NCBI GenBank assembly: GCA_021234155.1
Contig: JAJEKV010000054.1
Location: 5,255,962-5,319,961 of the forward strand
Length of the DNA: 64,000 bases
Reading direction: 5' to 3'
DNA from: Isoetes taiwanensis
Lineage: Eukaryota; Streptophyta; Lycopodiopsida; Isoetales; Isoetaceae
The notes below the pieces were generated by a model. It worked only from the letters and a program-made list of their open reading frames with translations. It did not search any database and was not told the DNA's origin. Shown here in pieces: positions 2,310 to 63,595 of this stretch (position 1 is its first letter; every line of letters starts with the position of its first letter). The translations under genes were made by a program, and so were the position numbers.

Positions 2310-2476
2310 GCCTCCTGACACGTATGAAATATCATAAAGTGGAAAGCTATATGAAGAAGTGTGAGGCAAGAGCCTTCACAACAAATTGGCCCAAATGATT
2401 AATCGATAAATTAAGTGACAAGATTGCAGAGTTAGTTCTAGATGTTGCCACTGATTGTTTTGTCTCACGCAGAAAG

Positions 2477-4663
2477 ATGAAGGGGTTGCCATGCAATAGT
2501 TGGTTTGATGCGTCTTGTAGAGCAAAAAGAGAGGCATTTAAGCAGGCAAGGGGGGAAGATAGACAGAGATTGAAGAAAGAATATTTTGCACTTACGAAAT
2601 CAAAAAAGAAAAAGTATGTATATCAGAGACAGCAGGAGCTGATCCGTGACACTATAGCAGATCCCAAAAAATTCTGGAATGAGCTTAAGCCTAAGATGAA
2701 GCAGGAGACCCACCTGGAAACCATGGCTTTATTAAGCCAAGTGCGTAAGCTGTATCACATGCCGGAGGCCAATGTCGGTAATATTGACTTACATGATGTA
2801 GGCTGGTGCTTTGATTTGGAAGACTTAGAAGAAGGGTTAAGTCATCTTGCCAACGGGAAAGCGGCTGATTCAATTGGGCTGGTAGCTGAAATGTTCAAAT
2901 GGGCAGGTAACTCAATACATGTTGCATTGTTGTCATTATTTAACAATGTTTTGCGCAAAGGGTTTCCTCGCACTTGGCAGCTGAACAGAGTTATCCCCTT
3001 GCATAAAGCTGGAGATGAGAATGATCCTGGAAATTACCGAATGATTCTGGTTAGTAGTTTATATGCCAAATTATTTGCTGCTATGCTGAATTGTAAATTG
3101 AGCACCTGGGCTGAAAAACATAATGTTAGAGCCACTGGACAGCAGGGCTTTAGACCAAAAAAGATCTGATTGATCATTTGGTTACTTTGCGAGCTATGGT
3201 TGATTCGGTTAAGGGTAAGAAAAAACCCCTTTATGCTCTTTTTGTTGATTATGCTAAGGCATTTGACACGGTATCTCGTAGTAATTTATGGGAGAGGATG
3301 GAGGCCCTAGGGGTACCAATTGAGCTTAGACATGCAGTGAAGATACTTTATGATAAAGTTTTGGTACAGCTATCATCCCCCTACATTGAGCAATCTTGCA
3401 GATGTGGTAGAAAGTAATATTGGAGTGAAGCAAGGGTGCCCATTGTCGCCCACGCTATTTGGCCTATTCATAGACCAACCTGCAGCTTGGATGTCCGAAT
3501 ATGGCGGGGAGGGGACCCCATTGTTTAGAATGCATGGTTCATTTGCTCTTATATCTTTGATGATGTTGTTCTTCTTTCCGATTCGATTGGAAGGCATGCG
3601 AGAAGCATTTAGATTTGGTACATTTCGTGAGCGAGAAAAGTATGAGGGTAAATATGTCAAAGACTAAGATGATGGTATTTGGGACAAATAAAGTAGATCA
3701 TCTTAAATTTCTCTATCATGGAGAACACCGTGGAAATTGTCACCTCATATAAGTATCTAGGGATACATGTGGACAAGGGGCATATTTGGAACTCTATTTG
3801 TTGAGCATAGAGTAAATGGGGGCCTGAAAGCACTATATAGCATGCTGGCGTAAAAGTGGAAAAAGAAATATGGGACTTTAGCTTTGGCATTACATTATAT
3901 CGAAGTCTTTGGTCCAAACAGGTTTTGCTCTATGGGTGTGAAGTATGGGGGCCGGGATTATCTCGTAGAATCTGGAAAAAGGTTGAGAAAGTGCACGAAG
4001 TTCTTGAGAACAGAATTGGGTACTAAAGCTCAAACTCCATATGATATCTTTGCTTGTAGAGTGTGGCATGATGCCACTAGAGGTGAAGCCCTATGCTTAA
4101 GCGCTTACATATCTCTCTAAGTTGCTATTTGATATGCCAGAAGATAGCTTACCAAGGCTAGCATTAGAAGAAACAAGAGACAAGGGATGGTACTCAGATA
4201 TTAGGGAATGGATGAGGAAGTGGGGGATGGACATTCATGGTATACATGAGAATAAGGGCAATCTAAGAGAGTGGGTGCATGAGCACCTCATTAGAAGAAG
4301 CTGGAGAGTCCCGGAGAAAAAAAAAAACATTTCTATAGACAGTATATAAATCCCACTCTCCAAGAGGCCAAATACCTCAAGGAAGGTGTGTCTTTTGGCG
4401 CCAGACAGATGATCAGCAGGATGCGGCTTAGCTCCCATAGGCTTGGGGTTCAAGTAGGACGTTGGAGTAATATTCCCCATGAATTGAGATTTTGCAAAGT
4501 ATGCAATATGGGAGAAGTAGAAGATGAATTACATGTCATCGTAAGGTGCCCGTCATACTCAGGGATTCGAGATAAGTACAATATCCATTCAAACTCTTTG
4601 CTGGAATTCTTTGATATGCCTGGACATCACATTGGGAAATACTTGAAGGAAATATTGATCTGA
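2477..4663 (+). pseudogene. LINE-A ORF2, reverse transcriptase and C-terminal region (multiple frameshifts)
   Basis: Reverse transcriptase blocks appear in order across several frames: NRVIPLHKAGDENDPGNYR, then QQGFRPKK, ALFVDYAKAFDTVSRSN (palm, first catalytic Asp) and GVKQGCPLSPTLFGLFID. A degenerate FDD version of the catalytic box lies near 3550. The thumb and C-terminal part continue to 4663, ending with a CKVCNMGEVEDELHVIVRC Cys/His segment typical of LINE ORF2 tails. At least four frame changes make it inactive. The C-terminal part is clearly homologous to LINE-B, LINE-C, LINE-D and LINE-E. Confidence 0.85.
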
Positions 4664-19729: not shown

Positions 19730-20501
19730 GGTTATCAGTAAATGACTGGAGGAAGGGCATTAATGGGGGATTGTGAATGTCTACGCCCACAATAATGCGC
19801 AGAAGAGGGGAGCATTATGGGCATCTTTGAGGAACAAGGCCAGTGCTTTGGATGCTGGAGTGGCTTGGTTGTTGCTCGGCGATTTCATGGTAGAGGCCAT
19901 TCATGATAGATGTGGCCGAGGATTGGAAGTGGTACAAGATTTCGAGCGAGAATAATGGTTAAAGTTGCTAGATTCTCTACATCTGGTAGAGTCATCTGGA
20001 GACTGTACTTTTACATGGTGCAATCAGTGGACAGGGGTAGGCCGGGCATATGCTAGACATGACAGATGCTATGTGAATACCCTAGTAATGGATCTTGCAC
20101 CCCAGCTCAAGCGGCAAAATATTTTGTTCACCGCGGTCTCTGAACGTACTCCACAGTTAATTTCACAGGGTCTCATTATAGTTTGACCCATGACAACAGT
20201 ATTCAAATTAAATACTAGGTGCTTGAAGGACGCTGATTTCTCTTGGAAATGCCAGCAAATTTGGTTCTGCACTTTTCGGGATAACTTTGGGATGTCATAA
20301 ATGATGAAGGCCTTAGTGGCTGTCAAATCACTCGCAAGGTCTTGGGGAAGACATAAGGCTCAGCAAAAGCGTGAGGCAATGGATGCATTATATAGAGAGC
20401 TTGAAACCCTTAGACTTTGGCCCTTCTGATGGAATACGGGAATATGAGATATTGCGCCTCATTGCAGCTGATGAATCTGAGAGAGCATCTTAGGCAAGGG
20501 T
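19730..20501 (+). pseudogene. LINE-F (plant L1), endonuclease part, left of the chromovirus insertion
   Basis: Degenerate frames read VNVYAHNNAQKRGALWASL, then AWLLLGDFM (the GDFN motif altered to GDFM) and a late segment with CTFTWCNQ and RHDRCYVN, as in plant L1 endonucleases. Stops and frameshifts are frequent. The interrupted LINE resumes at 33555 immediately after the 3' LTR and the repeated AGGGT, where GIAWLREGDINSRMFF follows, as expected after the endonuclease. Confidence 0.8.
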
Positions 20502-22084
20502 TGTGACGTTCCAAGTAATTATACGGTGTACGTATAAATACATTGACACGTCACTCGGTATAGATACGCCACCTGGGGTATGATAACCTAGGGGGTTGGC
20601 CACAAGGGATTTAATTAGCTATGTTAAATTAATTATAAAGGATAATTATCTAAATACTTGCTATTAAGTCACCTAATGGTGGAAAGGCGCCATTTGGCAT
20701 AACCTGAGTGGCCAGCATGGGGGTTTCTAAACTGAGCCACCAAAGGCAGCGCCACCCCCATCTGTACCCCAATTTCGACCCAGCCAGCACCAAGGAGCAG
20801 CTGAGCGCTCAGAGCACAGTTGCTGAACATCTCCGAATCGCCAAGACACCCTCTACCTGTCGCTGCTACCCCAGTACAGCACTATGGAAGTGCCCCTTGA
20901 CAACGGGTCCAGCCGAAACTCCGGTTAGTGGTAGCTTAACTTGCAAATTGTAGAATAATACTCTAGTATTCTTTTCTGGCTAGTTTTGGTTGAGATTAAC
21001 CCTTCTTTGGTAATTAGGAATACTTTTCAATTATGAATGATGCTCTGTTATGGGATGGTCGATGTCTCTATGAGTTAGTTTAGTAGTTCCAGTAAACAGG
21101 GATTAACAGGGGGGTAGAGGCCTCTGAGCTTGAGTATAGAATGCTCCTAGTACTTCCTTTAATACCCTACTAGTTTCGGCCTGTGCACAAAAGACCACCG
21201 GGTCATAGACGCTATGGTCTGGCTTAGCACCGGACAAGGGACACAGTGGTGAAGTAGGGGGTGGGGTCTTGCACGAGCATATAAGGCTCCTGAGACTCCT
21301 ATAGTGGGCTAGGCCTGATAGCCGGTCACGTAGAGGGCCGGGTATGGGTCTGACACTCCCCGGGTGTAGTGGTGTGACCCGTATGGGGCACCATGCACTT
21401 TGAGTAGAATTAGGGTGAGTAAGTCGGGTACGGATGCGGGGGTCGCTGACGCGGCACGTATTCTCTAGCTCACCCATGGAACCACTGTGATCCTGGAAGG
21501 GGACGCCTCCCCGACCTGCCTCATCGGACCAGGTGTCATGAACCTGGAGTAGGCTCAAAGGGTGATACCTAGAGTCTGCGTCTCCGGAAGGCTATAGCGA
21601 AGCCATAGCGTGAATCGACCCATCTGCAAAGTGTGCGCAGGAGGGGCGGATGGAGTGGACAACCCTAGCTGATGTTCTATGCCAGCAAACGCCATGCCAA
21701 GACTCGGTCTGCTGATCTCCTGAGACCCAGCCGTCAGTCGCTCCTCACTAGAGTCTGAACCGGGGTAGAATCTGGGCTTTGGGTGTTTTCTTAGCTTAGA
21801 TGCATATTCTTTGCCGTTGGTACTTGGATGGATGTGCCACCCCTCGTGGTGGTTATTTATATGTGATTTATGTTGTATGCTAACCTTGTATTCATGCTTC
21901 CGCGACGTAGGCGCCCATCGAAGGCGTGGGCCGAATGACCCCTCCGTGTCCTTCACCTGAGCTTCTCTACGTAGACGGCCCGGGTTAGATGGAGGGCCCT
22001 GCCCGTGGCGAGATGGACGCCATGGGAGGGGAAAGTCCCCGTATGTATACGACCGGGGGTCGTATATATTCAGGGAGCGTCACA
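20502..22084 (+). repeat. 5' LTR of the chromovirus
   Basis: Begins TGTGACGTTCCAAGTAATTA and ends GGGAGCGTCACA. It matches 31986-33554 over its whole length. Most of it is identical, but differences cluster in a few short patches (near 20800-20890, 21090-21100, 21310-21335, 21690-21715 and 21960). Confidence 0.97.
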
Positions 22085-22085
22085 G

Positions 22086-22098
22086 TGGTATCAGAGCC
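22086..22098 (+). other. Primer-binding site (tRNA-iMet)
   Basis: TGGTATCAGAGCC one base after the 5' LTR is the classic plant retrotransposon primer site complementary to the 3' end of initiator methionine tRNA. It primes minus-strand cDNA synthesis. Confidence 0.95.
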
Positions 22099-22361
22099 GT
22101 GATTTCGGTTGCTCGAAATCATAGCACTGGCCAAACACTAACTCGTAGCACGGTAGTTAGGACGAGGCTAAGTTAATGTGTGTTAGTCCTCTTTGATGTT
22201 TGGTTCGGTGTTAGGTTAAATTATGAAATTGTAGCTTTAAAGAAGATAGGGCGACTGGAGGGCCCAAGATTGGAAGAGAAGGTGGTTCCATTGGATCGGG
22301 CGTACTCAAATTACCCTAGAACAGTCGTCTCCCAGCGAAAAATGGTCAAGGGCAGGCCCGA

Positions 22362-22552
22362 AAACCAATTCGGGCGCCGCTTGCTTTTTATCGTCTTGCA
22401 GTCACGAAGGAAGAGCCGAAAATGCAGTCGGCGCCCGACCGTATAGACGGGAGTCAACGCGGCCCCGCCAGGTCAACTCGGGCGCCGCTTGTTTTTCGAC
22501 GACCCCCAGTCGAGGCGGAAGCACGTATAATGCAGCCGGCGCCCGACCGTAT
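22362..22552 (+). repeat. Leader direct repeat with paired GGCGCC hairpins
   Basis: About 80 bp occurs twice (22362-22443 and 22474-22552). Each copy has TCGGGCGCCG near its start (22370-22379, 22478-22487) and the exact inverse CGGCGCCCGA near its end (22429-22438, 22537-22546), so each can fold into a hairpin. The position right after the primer site is where retroelement RNA dimerisation or packaging signals are usually found. That function is inferred. Confidence 0.8.
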
Positions 22553-22841
22553 GCCCCGCGTACTTCCGTCGTATAATTATTTTTTGAATAACAAAATTAA
22601 AAAGTTAATAAGAAAAATTTTAAAATTTCAAAAGTTAACTGGCCGTTCAAATTTCTTTTTTTGTTGTCTTATTTCGCCTTGCCTTCAGCGCCTTCGACCG
22701 CCAGAGCTGACGCCCGCCATCGCCACCAGACCTGACTTTGCTCTTCCGCCCTTGTGCCTTGCGAACCCTAGCGCCTCTTTTGCCGTCTCCTTCGCCGCCA
22801 GCGCCTCACTGTCCGCCTTTGTAGACCTTAGTGCCACAGCT

Positions 22842-23651
22842 ATGGCCATTACCAAGAGCGCCCCTGACCCTTCTACCCTAAGCATAGTGGAGATTTATGC
22901 CATGATCGCCCGGTACATGGCTACAGACTCGGCTTTCATCGACATCCTTTTGGATGAGTTGGTGAACCGGTTTGAGAATAATGATAGGATCCCCTATCCT
23001 ATCTATCACTTCTCCGAGCCATTCCTGATCCGGTTGAACCTTCGCCAGCTTTCTTATACCATCGTCGAGCAACACGACATGGTCATGATGCTGATTAAGT
23101 TCTATCCTCCTGAACAAGAGGGGCATACCGAGGAGGAGGACATTAGAACAGAAGCCAAACGCATCAGAGGCTTGGCCCAGGAAGATGACCATTGGGAGAT
23201 AGAGCGAGCAGATACGGCGGCTCGGGGAAGAGAGTACTGGTACCTCGGGGACGGCTTTGCCGTCATAGATGGCAGGGCAATTGAGGTTCCCCCATACCGT
23301 TGGGATGAGGATAACAGCAGCTTTATATGGGGGGAAATCCCCGATATCAGCATAGATTATCTGACAACCATTCAGATGGATATGGGTCAGCGGCCCCAGC
23401 GGTACCATGCTGAACTTCTTCGCCGAAGCGCAGCCCAACATTTCGCTCAGGTTCAAGAAGATCTGAGGAGAGCCCGGGAGGAACGGGAGAGGCTTGAACA
23501 GGAGGAGAGGGCTCGGCAGGACCAGCTGAACCAGCAGGGTGCAGGAGCATCCGGGAGTGGGCGGGACCAATACCCACCGAGCACACGACCATTAAGCACC
23601 GTAAGAAGGCCGTGGCTCGAAAATCCGGCAGTCAATACAAGGATAAATTAA
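22842..23651 (+). CDS. Chromovirus ORF1, unknown domain plus coiled coil (probably fused to H3)
   Basis: A frame of 269 aa from the ATG at 22842 ([20 protein letters not shown]). The same frame is open from an ATG at 22422, but the upstream part looks like leader: low-complexity, with a 3' splice-like pyrimidine tract. The N-terminal 200 residues are acidic and Trp/Tyr-rich ([34 protein letters not shown]) and match no family I recognise. Then comes a charged coiled coil ([19 protein letters not shown]) and a Gly/Ser linker. The frame ends at 23651, but the histone H3 frame overlaps it, open from 23498, in the -1 phase. Every break in pol is also a net -1 step, so a single lost base could have split an ORF1-H3 fusion. 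The function is unknown. Confidence 0.7.
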
Positions 23652-24085
23652 AGACTGTCGGAGCTTTTGGCAAGAATACCAGCTCCAGTCGGAGACAGCA
23701 GCGGGTGGATGACTCCCGACCAGCTGTTGGGACCAAGACGGTGCCAGCACCGAAGAGGCCGCCTACAAAACCCGCCCCACAAAGGAAGCCCCATCGGTAC
23801 CGACCCGGTACCGTGGCCTTGCGGGAAATCCGCAAGTTTCAGAAGTCCACCCAGCTTCTGATACGGAAGCTTCCCTTCCAGAGGCTGGTACGGGAGATCG
23901 CGCAGGAGTTCAAAACCGACCTCCGCTTCCAGACATTTGCAATTTTGGCGCTCCAAGAGGCTGCGGAGGCCTATTTAGTGGCGCTTTTCGGTGACGCCAA
24001 CCTTTGCGCGATCCACGCAAAGAGGGTTACCATCATGCCTAAGGATTTAGCCCTTGCCCGTAGGATTCGGGGGGAGCATCTTTAG
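23612..24085 (+). CDS. Histone H3-like protein encoded in the chromovirus
   Basis: From the GTG at 23612, 157 aa are open. Residues 59-157 align without gaps to canonical H3 residues 37-135. Conserved segments include [52 protein letters not shown] and [15 protein letters not shown], so all histone-fold helices are present. About 14 of 98 positions differ from plant H3 (for example Y54F, E59Q, E105G, T107A, Q125A), and H3 Cys110 and His113 are kept. There is no loop-1 insertion, so it is not CENH3-like. The tail is replaced: it keeps one ARKS motif, has Arg at the K36 position, and is rich in Pro, Lys and Arg. The frame is intronless, consistent with capture from mRNA. No ATG precedes the fold in this frame, so it is probably translated as an ORF1 fusion. 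Nucleosome incorporation is inferred. Confidence 0.93.
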
Positions 24086-24303
24086 CATATTTTGCTGGGT
24101 TCTCCGCATTGTAAATATTTTTTTTTGAGAATTAATAAAAACTTTTGTTTGTATTAAGCATAATTTTTTTTATTTTTATATTACTTAGTGTTAAATACGA
24201 AATTTGCTGACGTCAGCATAAATAAAAGGGAGTTAAAAGAACTTTTAAAGTTCATTTCAATTGTTAGATTTGTTTCTCTTTCTCTCTCCTCCCTTCCAGC
24301 GCC
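24086..24303 (+). other. AT-rich spacer between H3 and ORF3
   Basis: 218 bp containing AATAAAAACTTTTGTTTG (a possible polyadenylation signal for the H3 unit), then the palindrome and TATA-like box, then a pyrimidine-rich TCTCTCTCCTCCCTTCCAG directly before the ORF3 ATG. The last resembles a 3' splice site. Confidence 0.55.
24205..24229 (+). promoter_or_regulatory. Candidate internal promoter: bZIP palindrome plus TATA-like box
   Basis: TGCTGACGTCAGCA at 24205-24218 is a perfect 14-bp palindrome with a TGACGTCA core, the site type bound by plant TGA/bZIP factors. It runs straight into ATAAATAAAAGG, TATA-like, about 75-85 bp before the ORF3 ATG. This spacing suits a promoter driving ORF3 separately from the LTR. 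No transcript evidence is available here. Confidence 0.5.
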
Positions 24304-25707
24304 ATGGCAGCCACCGACTTGCTTGCATGGTACGATGACGGAGAGCACTGGGATCCGCAAGTGGCCTTCGACCAGCTGCGGCCCTTGCTATGCCAGCGCC
24401 TAGATCTCATTACCAACATGCAGCGGCATCCAGATTATGCCGGATTTCTAGACTTCTACATGGAGGAGATGCTCCCTCTGTGTATCCCTCTTGGGGATCC
24501 TCCCCAACTGTATCTGGAGCGGGAGGTAGTCCGGGAGATGTTAGGGGGAGACACCCATGCATATGATGTGCTGAAGGGAAAGCTCCGATGGGGCAAACAC
24601 CTGCCCGTTGTGCAGCATCAGGGGCGGCAATATCTTGAGGTTGCCTTCGCCCTAGCCATCCTCATGGACCAATACGTCGAGGATGAAACCTTGCCTGTAG
24701 AGAAAGGCAAACTGCCTGAGTCTTCCGAGGAGGGGGAAGACGAACACATAGGCATGGGCGACTTCGCCCGTTGGAAGCAGTTAGCGGAAGAGCTGCCACC
24801 ACGCCGTGAGCAAGCTGTAGGCTTGTCAGGGCTAGATGGCCTTCCAGTTATTTATCACCAAGGGCAAGAATATCTTCTCTTGGATGATATTATCTGGACT
24901 TATCACATAGTGGCCGGATTTAGACGCAAGCGTAAAGACCATGTGCTTTATGAGCTTGCGGAGTATTGTATGGACGACTTCATCGACTTCACTTCTATTG
25001 AGCTTCCTCCGGAGGTGCAGCAGCTGCTCCAGTTCCGCCAAGAGACCATAGAGCCGGCTGAGACTCTACTACGTCTTCGGGAGCTGGTGATGCAGGAGCC
25101 GGCCTCCCAGCCCTCACCAGATGCCTTCACGGCTATGGGACCTCACGTCCCAAATATCAATATGGTTGAGGTTCCCTCCGGGTCAGATGACGAGGGAGAG
25201 GATTTATATCATAATCCTGCTCATGTGAAGGAGGAGCAACAGGAACTTAAGGAAGAAGAAGTCCCTATGGATTTGGATAAAGAAGTGGCCACGTCCGAGA
25301 CCCCACAAGGGAAGGTATTGGGAAACCACCTTACCCGCTTCTTCTTATCAGCCTTCCGGCAGGGCCAAGTTCTTTTTATAGCCCGAGATTTAGGGCCGGA
25401 GGCTGAAGCTTCATGGTGGACCCTCCGTGCTCTCTCCACATTGGCCGGGCACAAGAAGCTCCCCTATCGCACGTTTACTTATGTACTCGTGCGACGGGAT
25501 CTTGCCTTGACGGCGTTGGGCCAGGACATTGCACCTTGGATGAGCATGAAACTTCTTACAGCAGCCCCCTTGGCTGTTGCTTATCCACCAGAGGTTGCAT
25601 CCATTGCGGCTGCCACAGTAGACCCCGGGGTGACTCTGCTGCGACACGACCGCCTCCACCACCTCCTAGGCCTACGAATGAAGAGGGAGGACCTAGTTCC
25701 TAAATAA
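24304..25707 (+). CDS. Chromovirus ORF3, 467-aa protein of unknown family
   Basis: An uninterrupted frame from an ATG in good context (GCCATGGCAGCC). No known domain is recognised. A motif occurs twice about 80 residues apart: LPVVQHQGRQYLEVAFALAI near residue 100 and LPVIYHQGQEYLLLDDIIWT near 180, which suggests a duplicated small fold. Two acidic stretches follow (ESSEEGEDEH near 140; GSDDEGEDLY, then EEEVPMDLDKE around 290-325). The C-terminal 140 residues form another ordered-looking, Leu/Ala-rich region (FFLSAFRQGQVLFIARDLG). Acidic tracts are common in histone chaperones, and a partner role for the adjacent H3 is a guess. The frame is intact although gag-pol is broken. A promoter-like palindrome and a splice-acceptor-like tract precede it. 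Confidence 0.75.
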   Translation: MAATDLLAWYDDGEHWDPQVAFDQLRPLLCQRLDLITNMQRHPDYAGFLDFYMEEMLPLCIPLGDPPQLYLEREVVREMLGGDTHAYDVLKGKLRWGKHLPVVQHQGRQYLEVAFALAILMDQYVEDETLPVEKGKLPESSEEGEDEHIGMGDFARWKQLAEELPPRREQAVGLSGLDGLPVIYHQGQEYLLLDDIIWTYHIVAGFRRKRKDHVLYELAEYCMDDFIDFTSIELPPEVQQLLQFRQETIEPAETLLRLRELVMQEPASQPSPDAFTAMGPHVPNINMVEVPSGSDDEGEDLYHNPAHVKEEQQELKEEEVPMDLDKEVATSETPQGKVLGNHLTRFFLSAFRQGQVLFIARDLGPEAEASWWTLRALSTLAGHKKLPYRTFTYVLVRRDLALTALGQDIAPWMSMKLLTAAPLAVAYPPEVASIAAATVDPGVTLLRHDRLHHLLGLRMKREDLVPK

Positions 25708-25900
25708 TTGTACTACACATTTTTGTATTGTGTATGATTGTAAAATTTTGGCTTGGCAAATTCTTTAGCCATTCTATAATATAATATACCCCTTTTCTCA
25801 TCAATTGTGATTACTGTCTTGATGAATACAATTGAGAATTGTTCTTTTCCATGATGTCTTCTTCTAATTATTGGCGTTTAGAATATAATGGAATTACGGA
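25708..25900 (+). other. AT-rich spacer between ORF3 and ORF4
   Basis: 193 bp, AT-rich, with no frame. Its end together with the first bases of ORF4 reads TTACCATTGTCTTGCAG, a good match to a plant 3' splice site. Confidence 0.5.
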
Positions 25901-26389
25901 ATGTTCTATATTCATTACCATTGTCTTGCAGAAGAGACACTTCTGGAATATGAAGAGAGGATTACAGATCTGATCAGGAGGGAGGATCCAAGGCCGCCCG
26001 AACAGGACTATGGCCAAAGATATGGAGAATATTCTGAATGGGATGAAGGTTACGAGATGGAACCCCCGCCACCAGGAGAACCCTATGATCCAGCCAAAGG
26101 GATGGAGATAGTTAATATCCTCAGGGACAGAGCTTTTGAGGACCTGAAGAAAACTCTGTGCCGCACATGGGACTACTGGAGCATGACCAGGCACGAAGCC
26201 TTTGAGGACGCTAACGACCACCTGTGGCAACTCTTTTATGCTTTGAGGAGGCTTTTCAATCTCCTCATTATTAGCCCAACGTGGGAATACCAACCAGTCA
26301 TTGTCCAGGCCTGGGCACGCTACAAGCTCGTTAGGGCTGTGCGTGAGAGTGTTCGCTATTCAATCCTGTACCCCTTTGCGAACCCCTAG
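25901..26389 (+). CDS. Chromovirus ORF4, 162-aa protein of unknown family
   Basis: An intact frame. If translation starts at the ATG at 25901 the first residues are MFYIHYHCLAEE. Alternatively, TTGTCTTGCAG just inside the frame is a 3' splice site, and the protein then begins at EETLLEYEERITDLIR as a downstream exon. The first half is acidic and Pro/Tyr-rich (YGEYSEWDEGYEMEPPPPGE). The second half is helical and basic-aromatic (LWQLFYALRRLFNLLI, WARYKLVRAVRESVRYS). No family is recognised. It is compact, lies between ORF3 and gag in the same orientation, and its flanks are AT-rich like those of ORF3, as if the accessory genes were separate expression units. Confidence 0.65.
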   Translation: MFYIHYHCLAEETLLEYEERITDLIRREDPRPPEQDYGQRYGEYSEWDEGYEMEPPPPGEPYDPAKGMEIVNILRDRAFEDLKKTLCRTWDYWSMTRHEAFEDANDHLWQLFYALRRLFNLLIISPTWEYQPVIVQAWARYKLVRAVRESVRYSILYPFANP

Positions 26390-26607
26390 GCCGGGTCTTT
26401 CTAGTTTCTTTTTGTGTTATATACTGTGTGTGAGCTCAACTTTAAGCTTCAGTCGTATCATGTTATCCTTGTGTAATACTCCTGTATCAACTTTTGACAG
26501 TACTAAGGTGTGAAACTGTAATAGAAAAGTTTTCCTCTTATAATAATAAATTTTCCTTGTATTCTCTCTCTACCCTTTGTCCGACATGATAAAATTTGTA
26601 AGAATTT
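26390..26607 (+). other. AT-rich spacer between ORF4 and gag
   Basis: No frame. The spacer contains AATAATAAATTTTCC, a plausible polyadenylation signal. A splice-acceptor-like TTTTTCATGCTCGATTTAG lies just downstream, at the start of the gag frame. Confidence 0.45.
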
Positions 26608-27840
26608 ATGTGTTATAAGTATGCTTATACCTTTTTCATGCTCGATTTAGACGGTGCACGTAACGCCACCTGGCAAACACCTTCAAATGCCAGTAGACTC
26701 ACACCCGAACAGGAACTGATGTTAATGAAAAGGCAGTTAGGCGAGTTACAAGCCTATGTGTTGCATGCCAACCCACCGCAGCAAACCCAGGAGGATGGAC
26801 CGGAGTTACCCCCGCTACCACCGAGTCCACCTGCACAACAGCCATCTCCCCCTGGAGCCAGTCCTGTACCTGCACCAAGGAGGCCCCATGCTAAGCGTCA
26901 CCGAAGTTCCTCTAAGGATAGTGCCACTTCCTCACGCTCAACTACTTCAGTGTCTTCTGGATCATCGGTATCAGCTGGTGACCACGCAAAGCGCCGGGAT
27001 AAGGAATACCGTGAAGGCGGTTGATCTGACTATAACCGGTATATGGAAGAATAGGAAATTGGCCCGGTTTGATGGCAAATCCAGGCCGGACTAAATGCGA
27101 GAATCCTGGTTTGGACGAGATGAAGGAGTTTGGGAAGTCTTATGGCATGGCGGAGAAGGATCTGAGAAAGGTTGCCACCACCAACCTTACTGGGAGCTGC
27201 CGTGTATTTGGTGGAAGGGCTATGCGGGGCCAAGCATCCGGACAAGAGCGGATGCAACCGGGGAAGTTTGCCAAGGCTTTCAAGTCACATTATGTGCCTC
27301 GCGGCGCACAAGTGCCGACAAATTCAGACCTTTTATAGGTTGGAGCGAAGGGTATGACGGTTCAGGGCTTATAATCGATGAATTTATCTTTGCTGAGGTT
27401 TGTATGTACCGTGTATGACTGAAAAGAGAGCCGTAGAGGGTTATATTGAAGGGTTGGCCCCATCGATCAAACGGATGGTTAAAGCCATAGACCCAAAATC
27501 AGTTGCGGAGGCTGAGGCTAAGGCATTGAGCCTCGAGGAGGACACACCAAGGAACCAAGATCCGGCGTCCCGCTCCCCTACCATGAGCCTCGCCATCCAC
27601 ACCATACAAACCCGGCCGCCAAGCCCGGGCCTCTCAGCCGAGAATTCCTATGGCGCGCGGGAAAGAAAGTTACCTTCACCACGGCGGATAAACAGAGCAA
27701 TGTCGGTAAGGAAGTACGGAACCTCTTACAGTCAATTCCTAAAGAGGCCCGAGAACAGCTCCGCCGGGATAAGGCATGCTACAGGTGTATGCGGCCCGGG
27801 CACTTTATGCACAATTGCCCTTATGTTACGCAGACTGCCC
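26608..27840 (+). pseudogene. Chromovirus gag (capsid and zinc knuckle), several frameshifts
   Basis: The N-terminal part (26608-27024) is Pro/Ser-rich and disordered, probably from the internal Met at 26638. The capsid region follows in at least three frames: KLARFDGKSRPD, then WWKGYAG and KSHYVPR, and a stretch ending with MTEKRAVEGYIEGLAPSIKR, all typical of Ty3 gag. The zinc knuckle at 27777-27818 is intact as CYRCMRPGHFMHNC (CX2CX4HX4C). Gag would form the virus-like particle and bind genomic RNA. As read it cannot make one continuous protein. Confidence 0.85.
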
Positions 27841-28673
27841 AGCTGGCCATGGCCGACCTCGATTGGGACGATCTGGAGTCGACCTTACCTGTCGAAGACG
27901 AGGCTCCCGAGTATATTCACGGTGCGTCTCATATCCTTGCAGCTATAGAAACCGGCAATGCCGAAAGTCAGCCTGCTGTCATTTCCACCATAGGTCAAGT
28001 AGACAGTAAGCCTTTCATAATTCTTATGGATACAGGAAGTACACATAATTTTGCTTCTCCTAGGATGGCCCAGGTCTTACAGCTTGAAACATTAAGATCC
28101 CGACCGAGGCCTGTTACTCTAGCCAGTGGTAAGGTCAGGCATACTCATGGCCGCCGCATCAATCTTAAGATGCAGTTGCCAGGTGCACCAGTTGCTTTGG
28201 GTGCCGAATTGATGGATATTGGCAAATATGACCTCATTGTTGGTATGGAATTCTTGGCATCTGCAAAAGCCAACATAGACTACGAGAAGAGAGAAGTTAC
28301 CTTCAACACCGCTAATGGAGCCCGCGTGACTATCAAAGGTGAACCATTCAACCCTATCATGCAGTCTATGTCCATCAGACAGTTACCTAAAGCTATACGC
28401 AAGGAAAAGCTCCTTTACGTCATTATGCTTGCTTCCATAGAGTCAGATACTAAACAGAAGCAAGTAATCGATACCCTACCAGAGGGGATTGCTCATCTTC
28501 TCCGGGAATTTAGTGACCTTTTCCCAGATGAGATTCAGAAGCTTCCTCCTTCTAGAGGGGTGGAATGTGAAATAACTTTAGAGCCAGGTACCAAGCCTAC
28601 CAGCAAGGCCCCGTACTGCATGAGTCCTCCAGAATTGGCAGAACTTAAGAAGCAACTTCAGGAGCTACTAAAC
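27841..28673 (+). pseudogene. Chromovirus aspartic protease region
   Basis: Same frame as the zinc knuckle. FIILMDTGSTHNF at about 28017 holds the DTGS catalytic motif of retroviral-type aspartic proteases, and YDLIVGMEFL is the later ILG-like strand. It continues through the linker to the RT with EITLEPGTKPTSKAPYCMS, the usual pre-RT segment. The frame is lost near 28670, just before the RT finger motif. The protease would cut the Gag-Pol precursor. Confidence 0.9.
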
Positions 28674-29830
28674 CTAGCGTTTCGCCTTTTGGCGCTCCTA
28701 TTCTCTTCGTTAAGAAAAAGGACGGCTCGCTGAGGATGTGTATTGATTATCGGCAACTCAACAAGCATACTATCAAGAATCGCTATGCTTTGCCTCGAGC
28801 CGATGACCTAATGGATCAGTTGCAAGGGGCTAAGTATTTCTCAAAGATTGATCTACGCTCCGGATACCATCAGATAAGGATCAAGGAGGAGGACATCCAT
28901 AAATCCGCTTTTCGCACTAGGTATGGGCATTATGAATTTACAGTTATGCCTTTTGGATTAACTAATGCCCCAGCCACGTTCATGCGACTAATGAATGATG
29001 TCTTCCGACAATACTTGGATGATTTTGTTGTTATTTTCTTCGACGACATTCTCATCTATAGTAAGACCCTCGAGGAGCATGAGAAACATCTTAGATTGGC
29101 CCTACAAAAGCTAAGGCGTCATCAGCTCTATGCTAAGTTCTCTAAGTGCAAGTTTGCCACTCCGAAGGTCGATTACTTGGGCCATATCATCTCGGCAGAG
29201 GGAATTGCTACAGACCCCGCAAAGATAGAGGCCGTAAGAGAATGGCCTATTCCAGGAAATGTTTCCGAAGTCCGAAGTTTCTTGGGATTAGCAGGATATT
29301 ATCGAAAATTTGTAAGGATTTTGCGAAGATTGCAGCCCCTCTTACAAATCTCACAAAGCAAGAGAAGGTGAAAGATTGGATGGAGCACTGGAAGACAAAA
29401 GTTCAGGAAAGCTTCCAGCAGCTTAAGGATGCCTTAACATCAGCACCAGTTCTCACATTGCCCGATCCTGACCAGGATAAACTGGTGGCGACGGATGCCA
29501 GCAAGATTGCCACCGGGGAGTCCTAATGCAGGAGGGGAGGGTTATTGCCTATGATTCAAAGAAAATGAACGAAACAGAGCAGCGATATCCTACCCATGAC
29601 CAGGAATTGTTAGCCGTTGTCCGTGCCTTGCGAATATGGAGACACTACCTTCTTGGTAGAAGATTCCAGTTGGATACGGATCATCAGAGTCTCCGTTATT
29701 TATCCACCCAGCCGAATCTCAATCTCCGCCAGAGAAGATGGATGGAATTCCTGGAGGAATATGATTTTGAGATTATGTACAAGCCTGGCAAGCACAATGT
29801 GGTTGCGGATGCATTGTCACGCCATCCCTT
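28674..29830 (+). pseudogene. Chromovirus reverse transcriptase and RNase H, two frameshifts
   Basis: The RT blocks include [56 protein letters not shown] and the catalytic box [12 protein letters not shown] (FFDD in place of the common F-I/V-DD). Net -1 shifts occur near 29312 and at a G-run near 29515. RNase H follows: LVATDASK, FQLDTDHQSLRYL and KHNVVADALSRH mark its catalytic Asp positions and end. These convert element RNA to DNA and remove the RNA strand. All active-site residues are visible, but the reading frame is split in three. Confidence 0.93.
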
Positions 29831-31410
29831 GGCGACCCGAACCCATTGCAATGCCATTTCTACACTCACCAGTGAGTTTGGGAAACAGATAGAGCAGACC
29901 TTGGCCACAGATCCGGAGTTCCGTGACATTTGGGATAGTTTGGCTAAGGAAGCTCGCACGGATAAGGAACGCGACGCCTTTCGTGCGTATAAGAAAGAGG
30001 GCAACTTATTATATCATATGGATAAGTTGTGCGTACCTCAGACGTCGGGAGTCCGTAAGCTAATCCTCCACGACACCCACAACAGCCCTATAGCTGGACA
30101 TTCAGGGTTTATGAAAACCTACTTTAAGATTTGTTCCAGTTATTTTTGGCCTTCTATGAAAAAGGACATTGTCAGATACATTAAGCAGTGTCAGGTATGC
30201 CAGCAAACTAAGGCTGAACAGTTAAGGATCCCAGGTGAGTTACAACCTCTAGACGTGTCCAACGCCAAATGGGAAGTGATAACCATGGATTTCATTGTGG
30301 GCCTTCCACGAACTCTCCGGGGGATGCCTTAATGGTAGTCGTCGACAAATTGTCGAAAATGGCTCATTTCTTGCCATGTCGTACCACGGATACAGCTTTT
30401 GATACTGCTCTGCTATTTGCCAAGGAGATCTTCAGATTACACGGAATGCCACGAGTCATTGTATCGGCTGGGATCCCAAATTCGTAAGCGCATTCTGGAA
30501 AGATTTCTTTGCCACCATCCAGACCAAGCTTGCTATGAGTACGGCATATCATCCTCAAACAGATGGCCAGACAGAACGTACCAATCGCATTATAGAGGAT
30601 ATGCTAAGAAGTTATGTGTGGAGTAAGCAATCACAATGGGCTGACTATATTTATCTGGTCGAGTTTGCCTATAACAGTATGAAACAGGAGTCTTCCAGAA
30701 TGTCTCCCTTTATGATAAACTATGGTTACCAATGTCTAACTCCAGACACTTGGCATAACCCCGTTTCTAAGGTGGAGGTTTCTCAAAAACTCCTCCTGGA
30801 GATGCAAGCTCTGGTCGAAGAAGTTCGTGGCTACTTGTTGGCTGCACGCAGTCGTCAGAAGAGTGTAGCCGATAAGCACAGAACCCCACGCGTTTTCCAG
30901 GTGGGCGAATCAGTTTGGCTTAAAATCAAAGTAAAGCAAGCCAAGCTTAGGATTGGCAACTGTAAAAAGTTGGCCCCCAGATGGGCTGGACCATTCAAGA
31001 TTATTGAGCGCGTTGGAGAGCAGGCATATCGCTTAGAATTGCCGCCCCGCTTGAAGATCCACAAGGTCTTTCACGTGAGTCTTTTGAAACAACACACCCC
31101 TGATCCAGAGGAGGTTTTGGATTCCCCAACCCTCCTGGAAATGACGGAAGAGCAACTCGAAATAGTGCCTGAAGCTCTTCTTGATCGAGCTTACAAACAA
31201 ACCAGAAGGACTCAAATGTTGCAATACTTGGTTAAGTGGAAACACTTACCAGTTGAGGACGCTACGTGGGTGATGAAGATTGACCTTGACAAGCATTATC
31301 CGAACTTCATGCGCGAATCTGAAGGCCGCACCATCAACGATGCTATCAACCCCGCAACTGGCGGTAAGCTTAGAAGCTTGATTGCCACAAGTGGCGCCTT
31401 AGAGGGGTAG
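29831..31410 (+). pseudogene. Chromovirus integrase with C-terminal chromodomain, frameshifted
   Basis: The N-terminal HHCC zinc domain is present (HDTHNSPIAGHSGF ... CQVCQQTK). The catalytic core starts at [10 protein letters not shown] (first Asp, about 30288). The frame then shifts near 30320, and the second catalytic region near 30465-30485 is both altered and out of frame, so the usual Asp there is missing. The core resumes at MSTAYHPQTDGQTERTNR with the final Glu in IIEDML. The C-terminus has an SH3-like GPFKIIERVG segment, then a chromodomain around YLVKWKHLPVEDATWV. The aromatic expected at the start of a methyl-lysine cage is not obvious (PEALLDR), as in group II chromodomains. The integrase would insert element DNA, with the chromodomain steering it to particular chromatin. 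Confidence 0.92.
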
Positions 31411-31972
31411 ATGCATCGTAAATAATAACAAGTTACCGATGATGAGATCACTTTGTGTTCTCTAGGACGTGGTGTACTGTCAATAGTGACCTGACCACAA
31501 CTTGTTGCAAAGCATATAAATGGGAACTCGACCAATCCCGATGCTGCAAGGAACTGCAAACCATAGACATCATAGGTTCCCTGATAAATAGTATTTTCTT
31601 TTAATTATTATAAGGGGGTGGTCCCTTCAACCACAATTTCATCATATATACTGATATACTGACATGTCCAGGCCAGTAAGCAGTGCGTGACCTGCCCATG
31701 CTAGAGGGTTACTGATGACCCAAACTCTTCAGTTTTATTTTGTCTACATGTTTCTTTGTGTGTCCACTGATGTTAGTATTGGACTTCTGTTCTTGAACTT
31801 TGTGATTATGATAATCATGTAAAATGCACCACGGTGCTTGAATTGTTTTGCAAACTTTAAAGTTTTGAATATATGTATTACTTTTGCAAAAAAATAAGGA
31901 ATTACCTTCCTTCATAATGTATTTCTTTCTACATTCGTAACTAACCCCAATGCTGAGGACAGCATTAATCCT

Positions 31973-31985
31973 AAGGAGGGGAGAA
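31973..31985 (+). other. Polypurine tract
   Basis: AAGGAGGGGAGAA sits immediately before the TGTGACG of the 3' LTR, the expected primer for plus-strand DNA synthesis. The 560 bp between the integrase stop and this tract hold no gene. Confidence 0.9.
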
Positions 31986-33554
31986 TGTGACGTTCCAAGT
32001 AATTATACGGTGTACGTATAAATACATTGACACGTCACTCGGTATAGATACGCCACCTGGGGTATGATAACCTAGGGGGTTGGCCACAAGGGATTTAATT
32101 AGCTATGTTAAATTAATTATAAAGGATAATTATCTAAATACTTGCTATTAAGTCACCTAAGGGTGGGAAGGCGCCATTTGGCATAACCTGAGTGGCCAGC
32201 ATGGGGGTTTCTAAACTGAGCCACCAAAGGCAGCGCCACCCCCATCTGTACCCCAATTTCGACCCAGCCAGCACCAAGGAGGCGGTGGCGCTTCAGAGCA
32301 CGATTCTTTGAACATCTCGAATCGCCAAGACACCCTCTACACATTGCCGCCGCTACCCCAAGACAAAGACTATGGAAGCACCCCTTGACAACGGGTCCAG
32401 CCGAAACTCTGGTTAGTGGTAGTTTAACTTGCAAATTGTAGAATAATACTCTAGTATTCTTTTCTGGCTAGTTTTGGTTGAGATTAACCCTTCTTTGGTA
32501 ATTAGGAATACTTTTCAATTATGAATGATGCTCTGTTATGGGATGGTCGATGTCTCTATGAGTTAGTTTAGTAGTTCGATGCTTGAGGGATTAACAGGGG
32601 GGTAGAGGCCTCTGAGCTTGAGTATAGAATGCTCCTAGTACTTCCTTTAATACCCTACTAGTTTCGGCCTGTGCACAAAAGACCACCGGGTCATAGACGC
32701 TATGGTCTGGCTTAGCACCGGACAAGGGACACAGTGGTGAAGTAGGGGGTGGGGTCTTGCACGAGCATATAAGGCTCCCTGAGACTCCTATAGTGGGCTA
32801 GGCGATAGCCGGTCACACGAGGGGGCGGGTATGGGTCTGACACTCCCCGGGTGTAGTGGTGTGACCCGTATGGGGCACCATGCACTTTGAGTAGAATTAG
32901 GGTGAGTAAGTCGGGTACGGATGCGGGGGTCGCTGACGCGGCACGTATTCTCTAGCTCACCCATGGAACCACTGTGATCCTGGAAGGGGACGCCTCCCCG
33001 ACCTGCCTCATCGGACCAGGTGTCATGAACCTGGAGTAGGCTCAAAGGGTGATACCTAGAGTCTGCGTCTCCGGAAGGCTATAGCGAAGCCATAGCGTGA
33101 ATCGACCCATCTGCAAAGTGTGCGCAGGAGGGGCGGATGGAGTGGACAACCCTAGCCGATGTTCTATGCCAGCCAACGCCATGCCAAGGCTGATCTCCTG
33201 AGACCCAGCCGTCAGTCGCTCCTCACTAGAGTCTGAACCGGGGTAGAACCTGGGCTTTGGGTGTTTTCTTAGCTTAGATGCATATTCTTTGCCGTTGGTA
33301 CTTGGATGGATGTGCCACCCCTCGTGGTGGTTATTTATATGTGATTTATGTTGTATGCTAACCTTGTATTCATGCTTCCGCGACGTAGGCGCCCATCGAA
33401 GGCGTGGGCCGAATGACCCCTCCGTGTCCTTCACCTGAGCGTAGACGGCCCGGGTTAGATGGAGGGCCCTGCCCGTGGCGAGATGGACGCCATGGGAGGG
33501 GAAAGTCCCCGTATGTATACGACCGGGGGTCGTATATATTCAGGGAGCGTCACA
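31986..33554 (+). repeat. 3' LTR of the chromovirus
   Basis: Direct copy of 20502-22084, with TGTGACG and CGTCACA termini. It is 14 bp shorter because of small indels in the clustered difference patches. It is followed by the target duplication AGGGT and the resumed LINE-F. Confidence 0.97.
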
Positions 33555-35862
33555 AGGGTGAAGGCAGGGATCGCATGGCTGAGAGAAGGTGATATCAATT
33601 CTAGAATGTTCTTTAGGGCAGCTCGGAAAAAGAAATATGCAGCGTCAATGTCGTCATTAAAAATGCCTAATGGCCAGATTCTTCATCTGCCCGCGGATAA
33701 TAAACAGTTTGCATTTCAACACTTTTCTCACTTCTTCCAGGAAAAGAGTTATCAGTATTGTGATGTCTTGGAAGAAATTGTGTTCAACAAGATATCATGC
33801 AAGGTGTCAGTGGATAAAAGGCAAGAATTACAACTAGCACTCATTAAGCAGGAACTTGAGAAAGTGTGCCGCATAACTGGGACTTTTTGAAAGGATGATG
33901 CTAGCCTTTGGTTGTGAGGAGAGTTTCACAGCCATGGTTCTAAAACTCCTTACTTCTGCTAAAGCCAACATACTTCGTCATGGCGAGTCTTCGCTGATCT
34001 TCAGTGTTGGCTGCAGAATTCATCAAGATTGCCCATTGGCTCCTTACTTATTCACCATTGTCGCAAAAGTGTCTTCTCAATTGTTGAACTCTGCTTTGGA
34101 TGCGGGTGCCATAGAGGGTTTAAGGATGTGGATGGGTCGCAACAAATTGAAAGTCATTACGCCGATGATTCCTTCCTTTTCTTCACAAGTTGACGAGATG
34201 AATTTGATAAACATGAAAGAGCTTTTGGACACATGCTCTATTGCGTCAGGCTGTCTAATGAGCTGGATAAAGTGCTCCACATTTTGGCTTTCATCCGAGC
34301 TAATTCCCATCATTTTGTCTAACTTCCCTTGGCATATATAGCCACAGGGTAGATGCTCCAAACTATTGGGTATCCCATTGGGCATCGACATTTCTGCCAC
34401 GGGTATTTGGGAAGATATTTTGGTTTGCGTCGACATCTCAATTGGTGGAAAGGTGGAAAGCTCTCATTAGCCGGCATCTGTCATCCTGGCTCCAGAGAGC
34501 GGTGGTTAAGATTGCATGGTGGAAGTGTGTGCATCCCAAAGCTGCGGGAGGACTGGGAATCTTAGACCTTTCTCTCCATAGCAAGGTTCTGATTTTAAAG
34601 ATTATTTGGGAAATCCTTAGGAATGAGCTTGATTCTCCCGGCATGGTACTGCTTTTTTAGTCTCTTTCTCACTCGGTTGTTTTTCATAAGCATGTTGTTC
34701 CTGTGCGGCTTCCTTGGACGCTATTCTCAAATACCAAGCCATGTGTCAATGCCTCTCCATTTCTGAAGGACCTAATACGAGCCTGGGAGCAGGTTCGCCC
34801 GTTGTTTGAGATCGATACATCATGTTGCATCCAGTTGACATCATCGCCATGGTGGATCCCACTCGCCCTGAGTGCGTTACGATCTATATTGGCCTCATAT
34901 GTTGATCCTCAGATTCAGTGCAAATGGTCACAACATGGGGTTTGCTCGGTGGAAACTTGGTATTGATGGTCAGTTAGTGCCTTGGCAATTATTCCGTGAC
35001 ATGTTTCGACTTAAGGAACGGGACAGGACGATCTGGGCTCGAGTGGCAAATAATCTTCCATTATACCCCCCCACAAGGGACAGGACGGGTATGGCGATGT
35101 AACCCAAAAGATCGATCCTTTAAACTTTGTCAAGTCCTGCTATGAGCTTCTGGCAATTCAAAATGAGTTGCCTTCCTCTGACGGATGGGCTCTACATGTT
35201 CCAGGAGACGATTGGAGTAAAATTTGGAGGTAGGTGTGGATTCCAATTTCGCCTACTAAGACTCGCACGTTATTATGGCAAATAGTGCACCGACCTTTAA
35301 GGGTGAACACGTACGCTCACATGATAAAACTGTTTATCAGTGAATGCGACATCCATACTAAGAACCTGGAACACTGTACATTTTTGTGCACAGAGATTCA
35401 GCCTATATGGCATCGGGTCTGATGCTTATTTCATATTACTCTGAGCAGTCAAAGAGGTTCTTCTGGGAATATATCCTAGTAGATGGCCCCAAGTAAAGAA
35501 ACTAGCTTTCCATCTATGTAAAGCATGGTTACTATGGCTTATATGGAAGAGACAACGCATGAAGTTTTTCAGGAATGAAGAGTTGCAACCTGGCACATTG
35601 ATCCCTCAATTGAGGTGCAAACTGTACCTCTCCCACCAAGCTTCCACTCGAAAAGAACAGTTTAAGATGGCTATTTGGGAAAGGACACTCTTATTGTAGA
35701 CAGTCGCCGTGTACTCATTCCGTGAGAATGGCTTTAGGCTATGTTTATGCAGTATATGGGCTATCATCCGAGCATGATTGCTTGGGCAAGTGTACTCCTA
35801 TATCACTCTTCATGTACTTTGATTCTTATTAATTAATTATATTTTATCCTTCAAAAAAAACA
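33555..35862 (+). pseudogene. LINE-F (plant L1), reverse transcriptase and 3' part
   Basis: It resumes with GIAWLREGDINSRMFF. The RT is internally deleted: the text jumps near 33890 from the linker to a late finger/palm region (SLIFSVGCRIHQDCPLAPYL). Further plant L1 segments follow: SGCLMSWIKCSTFWL, WWKCVHPKAAGGLGILDLS, and a C-terminus with KMAIWERTLLL. It ends in AATTATATTTTATCC plus A8 at about 35854-35861. Stops and frameshifts are frequent, so it was old when the chromovirus landed in it. Confidence 0.85.
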
Positions 35863-38942: not shown

Positions 38943-42594
<3,652 letters not shown>

Positions 42595-45800: not shown

Positions 45801-47229
45801 ACAATTGTATTGAATATGTATTGACAAAGTTGTTGTATTTTGGGTTATATAATACATTTATTTGGGTTATACAAGCACAACATTAAGCTCATGGATCCGT
45901 CATTTATTTTGACCTTGTAAATACTAGAGTTGAGCATCACCATTTACGTGCACAAAGAATAAGGCGCTTTGAGAAATTTATTTAACACAAATCAAGTGCC
46001 TAAACAAGAACTTAACCGATATGGACTGGTTTGATAATGTAGCCGGTTCAAAACGTGCCGCAATCAACAGGTCAATAATTCATGCTTACCAAGACCAATT
46101 TCTATCTTTCGTTACACCATCGAAACACAACACATTCGAAAACATAATTTTGCTCTTCTTTGTTTTACTCATAAAAATTGGATAATTATTGAGCATCTCT
46201 ATTATTATGTAGCCGGATCAAAACGTGCCGCAATCAAGAGGCCAATAATTCAGAGCTTCGCATTGAATTACTATGGTGTTACACCATCGAAGTACAATAC
46301 ATCTGAAAACAAAATTTTGCTCTTCTTTGTTCCTTTTCCTTCGCCTCAACCCTGCCCTTCTGCTAGTTATTTATTTATTTATTTATTTTTATTTTTATTT
46401 TTTAAGCAGGCTTGCCTAACCTAACCTGGGGTGCAAGATACGTTACTTGCCACCTCATCTAATATTGTTTCCAACCATTGGATCTTTAAAATTATGCATC
46501 AACGGTTCACGAAATTAGAAAAGCCCTGAAATTAGCCTCCCGGCCTCCTATGACCATGGCTCTCCAGTATCATTACGCGATCGATCCATGTTTTGTGTTG
46601 GTGTAAACTGAGAAGAATGAATTTTGGATTGAGAAACTTAGGCGGAAGGCAGAGAAGAGAGAAGGCAGGACTGAGTAGTGTGTTTTGTTAAGCTTTGGGT
46701 TTTGCATAACAACTTTCTTGAAGAGCTTCGACATGCTACGGTTTTGTTACTGCAGCCTTGTTCATGTTCAAGTGTTCAACTATTGTTGTGCCCAACAATC
46801 AAAGGAGCAGTCCTTCCAATCCTCTGCTAGTGCTCGCCTAGATATCCGAAGCAAACCCCTGTGCATCAACCAACCTCCGCCCTCGGCCGGAGGAACCCTG
46901 GGCCGAACCACGACTTGCTGTGCTCAACCATGGCTTGCTCTGCTCAACCATGGCGACTGCCTAAGCATACTGGATTTAGTGGATTTGGAAATCCACAAAA
47001 CAACATCTCCACTGAAAAAAATATCTTGCAATCTGTTCACTACTCACTTTACAAATTTGCATTCTACTCTGTACTCAACAGCAACAACTTGCTACACAGT
47101 GGCTCGAATTAAATTGGGTTTTCTCGAATTGTCTTCAAGATCATGCAAGCATTTACGTTACTCAGCAGCTGCACTATTGGGATGTCAGATCAGTTCTGCT
47201 ACAAAAGTAGCCGAACATTGTTACATTGA
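42805..47229. other. Long intergenic region, no gene recognised
   Basis: About 4.4 kb of AT-rich sequence with only short, unconvincing frames. The stretches at 42740-42900 and 46395-46540 resemble each other loosely (GGTTGCCTAACC, GAAATTAGAAAA) and may be remnants of one repeat. A frame from 46685 leads into LINE-D, but its first part is not recognisable. Confidence 0.4.
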
Positions 47230-62992: not shown

Positions 62993-63034
62993 GTAGAAGG
63001 AGCTTGCGATTCTGTGGGTTCATTAGATGTCGTT

Positions 63035-63595
63035 GATTGATGAGTTCAAGCATCGAGACTTCCCAATCTTTCTTTCCCCTCCTCTTTGGGCAATGTAGCT
63101 TAGTTTACATGCTAAGTTCCATTGTTCAAAGAGGGGTGAAAGCAAGGGTTGGGAAGTCTCGATGCTTGTACTCAGGTCTCTTTCATCCTGGCCTGGAGCG
63201 TGATCCTTCGGGTTAATTGGATGTTAGTGATTGATGAGTTCAAGCATCGAGACTTCCCAATCTTTCTTTCCCCTCCTCTTTGGGCAATGTAGCTTAGTTT
63301 ACATGCTAAGTTCCATTGTTCAAAGAGGGGTGAAAGCAAGGGTTGGGAAGTCTCGATGCTTGTACTCAGGTCTCTTTCATCCTGGCCTGGAGCGTGATCC
63401 TTCGGGTTAATTGGATGTTAGTGATTGATGAGTTCAAGCATCGAGACTTCCCAATCTTTCTTTCCCCTCCTCTTTGGGCAATGTAGCTTAGTTTACATGC
63501 TAAGTTCCATTGTTCAAAGAGGGGTGAAAGCAAGGGTTGGGAAGTCTCGATGCTTGTACTCAGGTCTCTTTCATCCTGGCCTGGAGCGTGATCCT
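63035..63595. repeat. Three tandem 194-bp units, each containing a 120-bp hairpin
   Basis: Units start at 63035, 63229 and 63423; the third is cut short near 63595. In each, AAGCATCGAGACTTCCCAA pairs with an exact inverse copy about 82 bp later (first unit 63048-63066 and 63149-63167). Imperfect pairing continues inward to a small loop around TTTACATG. Single arms also occur at about 62409 and 62463. Confidence 0.97.

Follow-up and report, generated by a model that had tools for sequence, protein, structure and literature searches.

Introduction

Chromoviruses read chromatin by means of a chromodomain. The plant Ty3/gypsy chromoviruses (CRM, Tekay, Reina and Galadriel, together with Tcn1 in non-seed plants) resemble the element analysed here in their LTRs and 5-bp target site duplication, their tRNA-Met-type primer site, the order of protease, reverse transcriptase, RNase H and integrase (PR-RT-RH-INT), and the chromodomain at the integrase end, but differ from it in that a module of about 4 kb, composed of ORF1::H3, ORF2 and ORF3, precedes gag in the present element. 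An element with a histone gene is not mentioned in the available portions of PMC6317226, PMC2864245, PMC3350952 and PMC3059260.

Accessory genes in LTR elements are documented in bdelloid rotifers, where, according to the available part of PMC5408684, a captured additional ORF is kept by the element, as it is here, and spliced messages for the extra ORF are reported. The extra ORFs described in that part ("ORF3") are env-like or encode a GDSL lipase, a DEDDy nuclease and other proteins, and the word histone is absent from the main text (PMC5408684). Viral genomes encoding core-histone folds are represented by Melbournevirus and Medusavirus, which, in the accessible parts of their descriptions, are large DNA viruses carrying doublets or sets of core histones; the family considered here, in contrast, is made up of reverse-transcribing elements in which a single H3 fold is joined to a novel protein. 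No description of a retrotransposon encoding a histone was found in the literature searched by title or beginning of the abstract, a search outside which most subscription papers and preprints lay.

The present study concerns a stretch of 64 kb of Isoetes taiwanensis DNA (the window), in which a chromovirus-type LTR retrotransposon had been predicted to encode a complete histone H3. The element was annotated, and its relatives were sought in the assembly from which the window comes, a single genome of 1,658,258,908 bases in 1110 contigs.

Results

Structure of the element

A full-length LTR retrotransposon occupies positions 20502-33554 of the window, as recognised from paired LTRs with TG..CA ends, a target site duplication, a primer site and a polypurine tract. 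The 5' LTR (TGTGAC...GTCACA; 20502-22084) and the 3' LTR (31986-33554) measure 1583 and 1569 bases and are separated by a K2P distance of 0.024 (37 differences over 1563 aligned positions, with 11 gaps, in an alignment that takes in a few flanking bases). The 5-bp duplication AGGGT was read on both sides, at 20497-20501 and 33555-33559. The primer binding site TGGTATCAGAGC (22086-22097), which we take to be of the initiator tRNA-Met type, follows the 5' LTR, and the polypurine tract AAGGAGGGGAGAA (31973-31985) precedes the 3' LTR, as it does in three sibling elements. All internal features lie on the forward strand, as do both LTRs.

The gag region (26641-27900, ends approximate) contains a CX2CX4HX4C zinc knuckle at 27777-27818. 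It is followed by the protease (27945-28316; RVP_2, 2.7e-12), the reverse transcriptase (28649-29371; RVT_1, 3.7e-40), the RNase H with the zinc-binding part of the integrase (29481-30332; Pfam), and the C-terminal part of the integrase with its chromodomain (30403-31410; Chromo PF00385, 3.2e-08; SH3_Tf2-1, 2.4e-22). The Pfam order of protease, reverse transcriptase, RNase H, integrase and chromodomain is that of Ty3/gypsy elements, and the chromodomain at the integrase C-terminus is that of chromoviruses. Both gag and pol of the window copy carry several frameshifts. Inspected by eye, the chromodomain cage misses its first and last aromatics, and the same cage aromatics are absent from type II chromodomains as given in the available part of PMC3059260.

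The 4-kb module ahead of gag opens with the N-terminal part of ORF1 (22842-23591, frame open to 23651), a novel domain followed by a predicted long helix or coiled coil. A second open frame (23498-24085), out of frame with ORF1 in the window copy, holds a basic tail and the H3 fold (23783-24082; canonical residues 36-135) and ends in a stop codon at 24083-24085. ORF2 (24304-25707, 467 aa, conserved) and ORF3 (25889-26389, with an acceptor-like CAG ending at 25931) complete the module. The H3 is thus seen in the sequence within the LTRs, on the element's strand and between primer site and gag, as had been predicted; two further ORFs, ORF2 and ORF3, intervene between it and gag.

The window contains further features of note. 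Two imperfect 79-base direct repeats (76%) lie at 22366-22552, between the primer site and ORF1. LINE-like reverse transcriptase sequence was recognised by eye at 20400-20501 and 33555-34966, so that the element interrupts a LINE-like reading frame, and more such frames at 2399-3169 and 46679-48809. An open frame on the reverse strand (41353-42009) resembles part of plant ATG6/Beclin-1 and is probably a host gene with long introns; its Pfam match is at chance level. At 63008-63595 there is a direct repeat with 194-base spacing and 98% identity, and this region also contains matches in inverted orientation.

Identity of the H3 fold

The frame at 23498-24085 matches the Pfam Histone family (PF00125, 2e-41), and its best PDB match is a plant-type H3.3 (1.8e-53), both identifying an H3 fold. 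Residues 36-135 align to a generic plant H3.3 without gaps and with 14 changes: K36R, Y54F, E59Q, D77E, S86T, H87F, V89I, G102A, E105G, T107A, I124L, Q125A, R134H and A135L. Against one host H3.3 gene (L041) there are 13 changes (87% identity over the same residues), E77 being found in the host as well, and the count of about 14 substitutions in the original prediction was accurate. The assembly holds at least 15 full-length host H3 genes, 97-99% identical to a plant H3.3 query and scoring 270 bits and more, against 193 for the next match; E77 is probably a host feature, because all four of the 15 that were examined have it. Y41 and L90 of the element fold we take to be H3.3-type. The hallmark of CenH3 is a longer loop 1, and the element fold differs from CenH3 by this criterion, no lengthening of loop 1 being present in the ungapped alignment of residues 36-135 to H3.3. 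A search of the protein database with the H3 was uninformative on relatives of the element, the best 120 of 8000 matches being mostly proteins whose length and score suggest a pair of H3 folds.

The prediction of a complete H3 was borne out for the fold, which is complete and gapless over residues 36-135, but the canonical N-terminal tail is missing and K36 is replaced by R. For the 69-residue stretch preceding the fold, alignment to the H3 tail is not significant (1142 of 2000 shuffled sequences score as high), and the predicted start at 23612 was misplaced, falling within this tail. The window's H3 frame has no ATG upstream of the fold. What is encoded is therefore not a stand-alone protein of about 136 aa with a canonical N-tail. 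An ARK(S/T) motif resembling H3K9/K27 is conserved in the element tail: across 25 aligned copies the lysine is invariant and the residue after it is always S or T, whereas R is present in 23 copies and A in 24.

Of the positions considered, 19 of 20 DNA-contact residues and 16 of 18 H3-H3' residues are unchanged, which makes pairing with H4 and entry into nucleosomes plausible. The changes in the fold cluster at 86-89, 102-107 and 124-125, positions presumably near chaperone and H4/H3 contacts and neighbours touching H3, so that the partners may have changed.

The H3 fold as the C-terminal domain of ORF1

In sibling copies ORF1 (MANTKS...) runs unbroken through the predicted coiled coil and the basic tail into the H3 fold, giving a fusion of about 415 aa with the novel domain at its N-terminus and the fold at its C-terminus. 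A single frame of 404-452 aa was found in 18 of 20 siblings, which had been chosen partly for long open frames. Among 150 scored H3 matches, 119 lack an internal stop, and 68 lie in frames of 400 aa or longer, the match being free of stops in 57 of the 68. In the window copy a frameshift parts ORF1 from H3, leaving them in different frames. The prediction that the element itself carries an H3 is supported, this H3 being a fusion domain of ORF1 and not a free histone.

ORF1 returned no protein-database match at E <= 0.01 among 2235 candidates, and its structure model was poor (mean pLDDT 44.8). Only weak, chance-level matches were obtained for ORF1, ORF2 and ORF3 in Pfam, for these three and P0121, the ORF2 relative described below, in NCBIfam, and for ORF2 and ORF1 profiles against the PDB. 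Viral contigs yielded no relatives of ORF1, ORF2, H3, integrase, P0121 or the ORF2/P0121 alignment, and bacterial and archaeal genome contigs none of P0121 or that alignment.

In rows whose match begins where the ORF does, ORF2 is immediately preceded by a pyrimidine-rich (C/T)AG in 22 of 23, and CAG is found at the start of ORF3 in 11 of 13 and TAG at the start of gag in all 13. These acceptor-like sites suggest that the ORFs may be translated from spliced mRNAs. The last 20 or so residues of the window's ORF2 (25648-25707) seem to be a copy-specific frame change, most siblings matching only to about residue 448.

Occurrence in the genome

Recurrence in sibling elements, on which the original prediction had staked itself against a single-copy occurrence, was found. 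At least 150 strong H3-ORF matches, the window included, are distributed over 76 contigs (150 scored of 9,982 first-look candidates), with identities of 79-96% apart from the window itself. At 20 sibling loci of 10 kb, three of which are the same copies as L003, L007 and L008, ORF1 and H3 were present in every case, as was LTR-homologous DNA upstream (a nearly whole LTR in 16), and ORF2 sequence in 19, one of these retaining only the first 26 residues. At the expected 3' end of four siblings, LTR sequence was found in all; three are full-length elements with LTRs on both sides and perfect 5-bp duplications (GTGAA, ACTTA and AAAAT; LTR K2P 0.065, 0.016 and 0.015), and the 3' LTR of the fourth is broken.

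To avoid selecting by H3, loci were also chosen with ORF2 (91 scored of 7798 candidates, window included). The eight loci obtained were the window and seven others, all seven with H3 upstream; L036, L039 and L040 are the L005, L004 and L009 of the first set, and L034, L035, L037 and L038 are new. The fold has a frameshift in L035 and an 11-residue gap in L034. Every locus recovered with its flanks (L001-L028, L033-L040) has ORF1 or ORF2 beside the H3. A large family of chromodomain-bearing Ty3/gypsy elements thus encodes an ORF1 that ends in an H3 fold, in the interval between primer site and gag.

Two loci contain additional copies: a decayed second copy of the same family lies close by in L011 (8678-10000), and in L027 (9023-9998) a diverged subfamily lies close by in opposite orientation, again with ORF1 followed by H3 (58-65% for ORF1; 68% for the initial part of the H3 frame).

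Selection on the fold

Over 25 copies, comprising all distinct loci of the first set except for the second, broken H3 of L011, left out for its stops, the H3 fold gave dN 0.0149 and dS 0.514 (NG86), hence a dN/dS of 0.029 (codon bootstrap 0.016-0.045), far from the value close to 1 expected of a neutrally evolving pseudogene. The list that supplied the copies was ordered by protein similarity, a choice that can depress dN. Six loci chosen with ORF2 and free of gaps in the fold served as a partial control and gave 0.027; four of them, the window included, also belong to the main set. The tail reached 0.189 in the same 25 copies, ORF1 0.119 (22 copies, each matching continuously over a long stretch), ORF3 0.099 (12 copies) and ORF2 0.092 (5 copies). 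In a same-copy comparison of five elements the reverse transcriptase core (70 codons, allowing for a codon deletion in L025 and skipping a stop codon in L009) scored 0.026 and the H3 fold 0.027. Purifying selection on the fold is about as strong as on the reverse transcriptase core.

The dN/dS of the fold drops with distance, from 0.132 at dS<0.1 to 0.020 at dS>0.8, as expected if selection acts on the lineages that transpose, with individual insertions decaying afterwards. Codon simulations, which start from an assumed ancestor and are superseded by the comparison of copies, reproduced substitutions as conservative as those observed in 1 of 400 runs (5-10 of 1000 per setting in a second series), and reached the observed number of multi-base changes in 0-1 of 1000 runs. 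Since many copies keep the fold under very strong selection, the element appears to depend on carrying its own histone.

Origin and age of the fold

ORF2 belongs to a conserved protein family of about 470 aa, and a protein from an ENA contig of 3374 bases (P0121) is 44% identical to it over 83% of the joined query (E 1.1e-105). P0121 itself was not found among 90 scored matches in the window's assembly, where the top match (C1014:208556; L053) has 73% identity and the second (C1014:355137; L054) 63%, the other 88 reaching 43-46%; P0121 may thus stem from another host or from a remote copy. These two loci represent a P0121-type subfamily in which ORF2 is about 44% and ORF1 about 33% alike to the main family, with H3 in the same place.

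Upstream of ORF2, L054 has an H3 fold and two ORF1-like pieces in different frames (36% and 32% identical), the second sharing one open frame of 260 aa with the fold, and L053 has broken ORF1-like and H3 pieces. The L054 fold is 88.8% identical to that of the window and 85-89% to those of six main-family copies, from which it is separated by saturated synonymous divergence (pS 0.84-0.91); the fold has changed far less than the flanking ORF1 and ORF2. K36R, T107A and I124L, relative to host H3.3, are common to L054 and the main family. These shared changes, together with the same position, make it likely that a single capture predates the divergence of the P0121-type subfamily from the main family; the fold was probably taken from a host-type H3 and kept since. 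A host-type source is indicated by the H3.3-like Y41 and L90 and by E77, as in the host H3s. Three folds picked for their likeness to ordinary H3 (L047, L048 and L052) show intermediate sets of changes.

Discussion

The interpretation we favour, though we would put its chances at about even, is that a family whose ORF1 ends in H3 descends from an old single capture, and that pairing of the fold with host H4 brings ORF1 to chromatin. The ORF1-H3 protein would be made from its own spliced mRNA and would oligomerise through the coiled coil; its H3 fold would pair with host H4, and through the resulting H3-H4 pair, whether nucleosomal or bound to chaperones of H3-H4, ORF1 could carry the element complex to chromatin, where arrival may help entry and integration or spare new copies from silencing. 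A more specific form is put forward tentatively: ORF1-H3 may be incorporated into nucleosomes of the host or into complexes of H3-H4 with chaperones, with the ARK(S/T) tail in place of H3K9, so that the element controls its integration site and silencing.

Somewhat doubtful is the idea of an anti-silencing decoy, by which ORF1-H3 would act as a competitor of host H3 for binding to H4, to chaperones or to H3 methyltransferases and leave element chromatin unsilenced. The H3K9/K27-like lysine of ARK(S/T), invariant in 25 of 25 copies, the tail dN/dS of 0.189 and the replacement of K36 by R would suit such a role, but the motif is short and set in a K/R-rich stretch, and over its full length the tail shows no similarity to the H3 tail beyond that of shuffled sequences.

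We consider it unlikely that the fold is a DNA-binding nucleoprotein domain packaged in virus-like particles, with or without H4. Even with the DNA-contact residues kept and a coiled coil that could oligomerise (from a weak model), a gag with a zinc knuckle is already encoded by the family itself, simple DNA binding would not require the H3-H3' positions to be kept, and selection of this strength argues for specific partners.

That the copies are domesticated host H3 variant genes, lying near LTRs or duplicated with them and selected for the host, is very improbable. Amplification of H3 does occur, as fifteen ordinary host H3 genes were found, yet the copies sit at the same place in elements with pol and LTRs, three of them with their own target duplications, ORF1 or ORF2 stands beside H3 in all flanked loci, and dN/dS is higher in close pairs, as expected of dead insertions. 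An array of host genes was rejected on the position within elements and these target duplications, and an artefact of the reading frame was likewise rejected. Capture of host genes by LTR elements is known in general, but a processed H3 pseudogene caught as a passenger by one copy can practically be dismissed, given many copies with a fold fused to ORF1 at a dN/dS of 0.029, its presence in a deeply split subfamily, and 13 changes from host H3.3 in an element whose LTRs differ by only about 2.4%.

Besides the chromodomain, which reads chromatin, this family encodes a piece of chromatin. Selection of reverse transcriptase grade on a retrotransposon's histone fold offers a direct handle on how the element meets host nucleosomes and silencing, and it suggests that the recruitment of core histone genes is not confined to large DNA viruses but can extend to reverse-transcribing elements.
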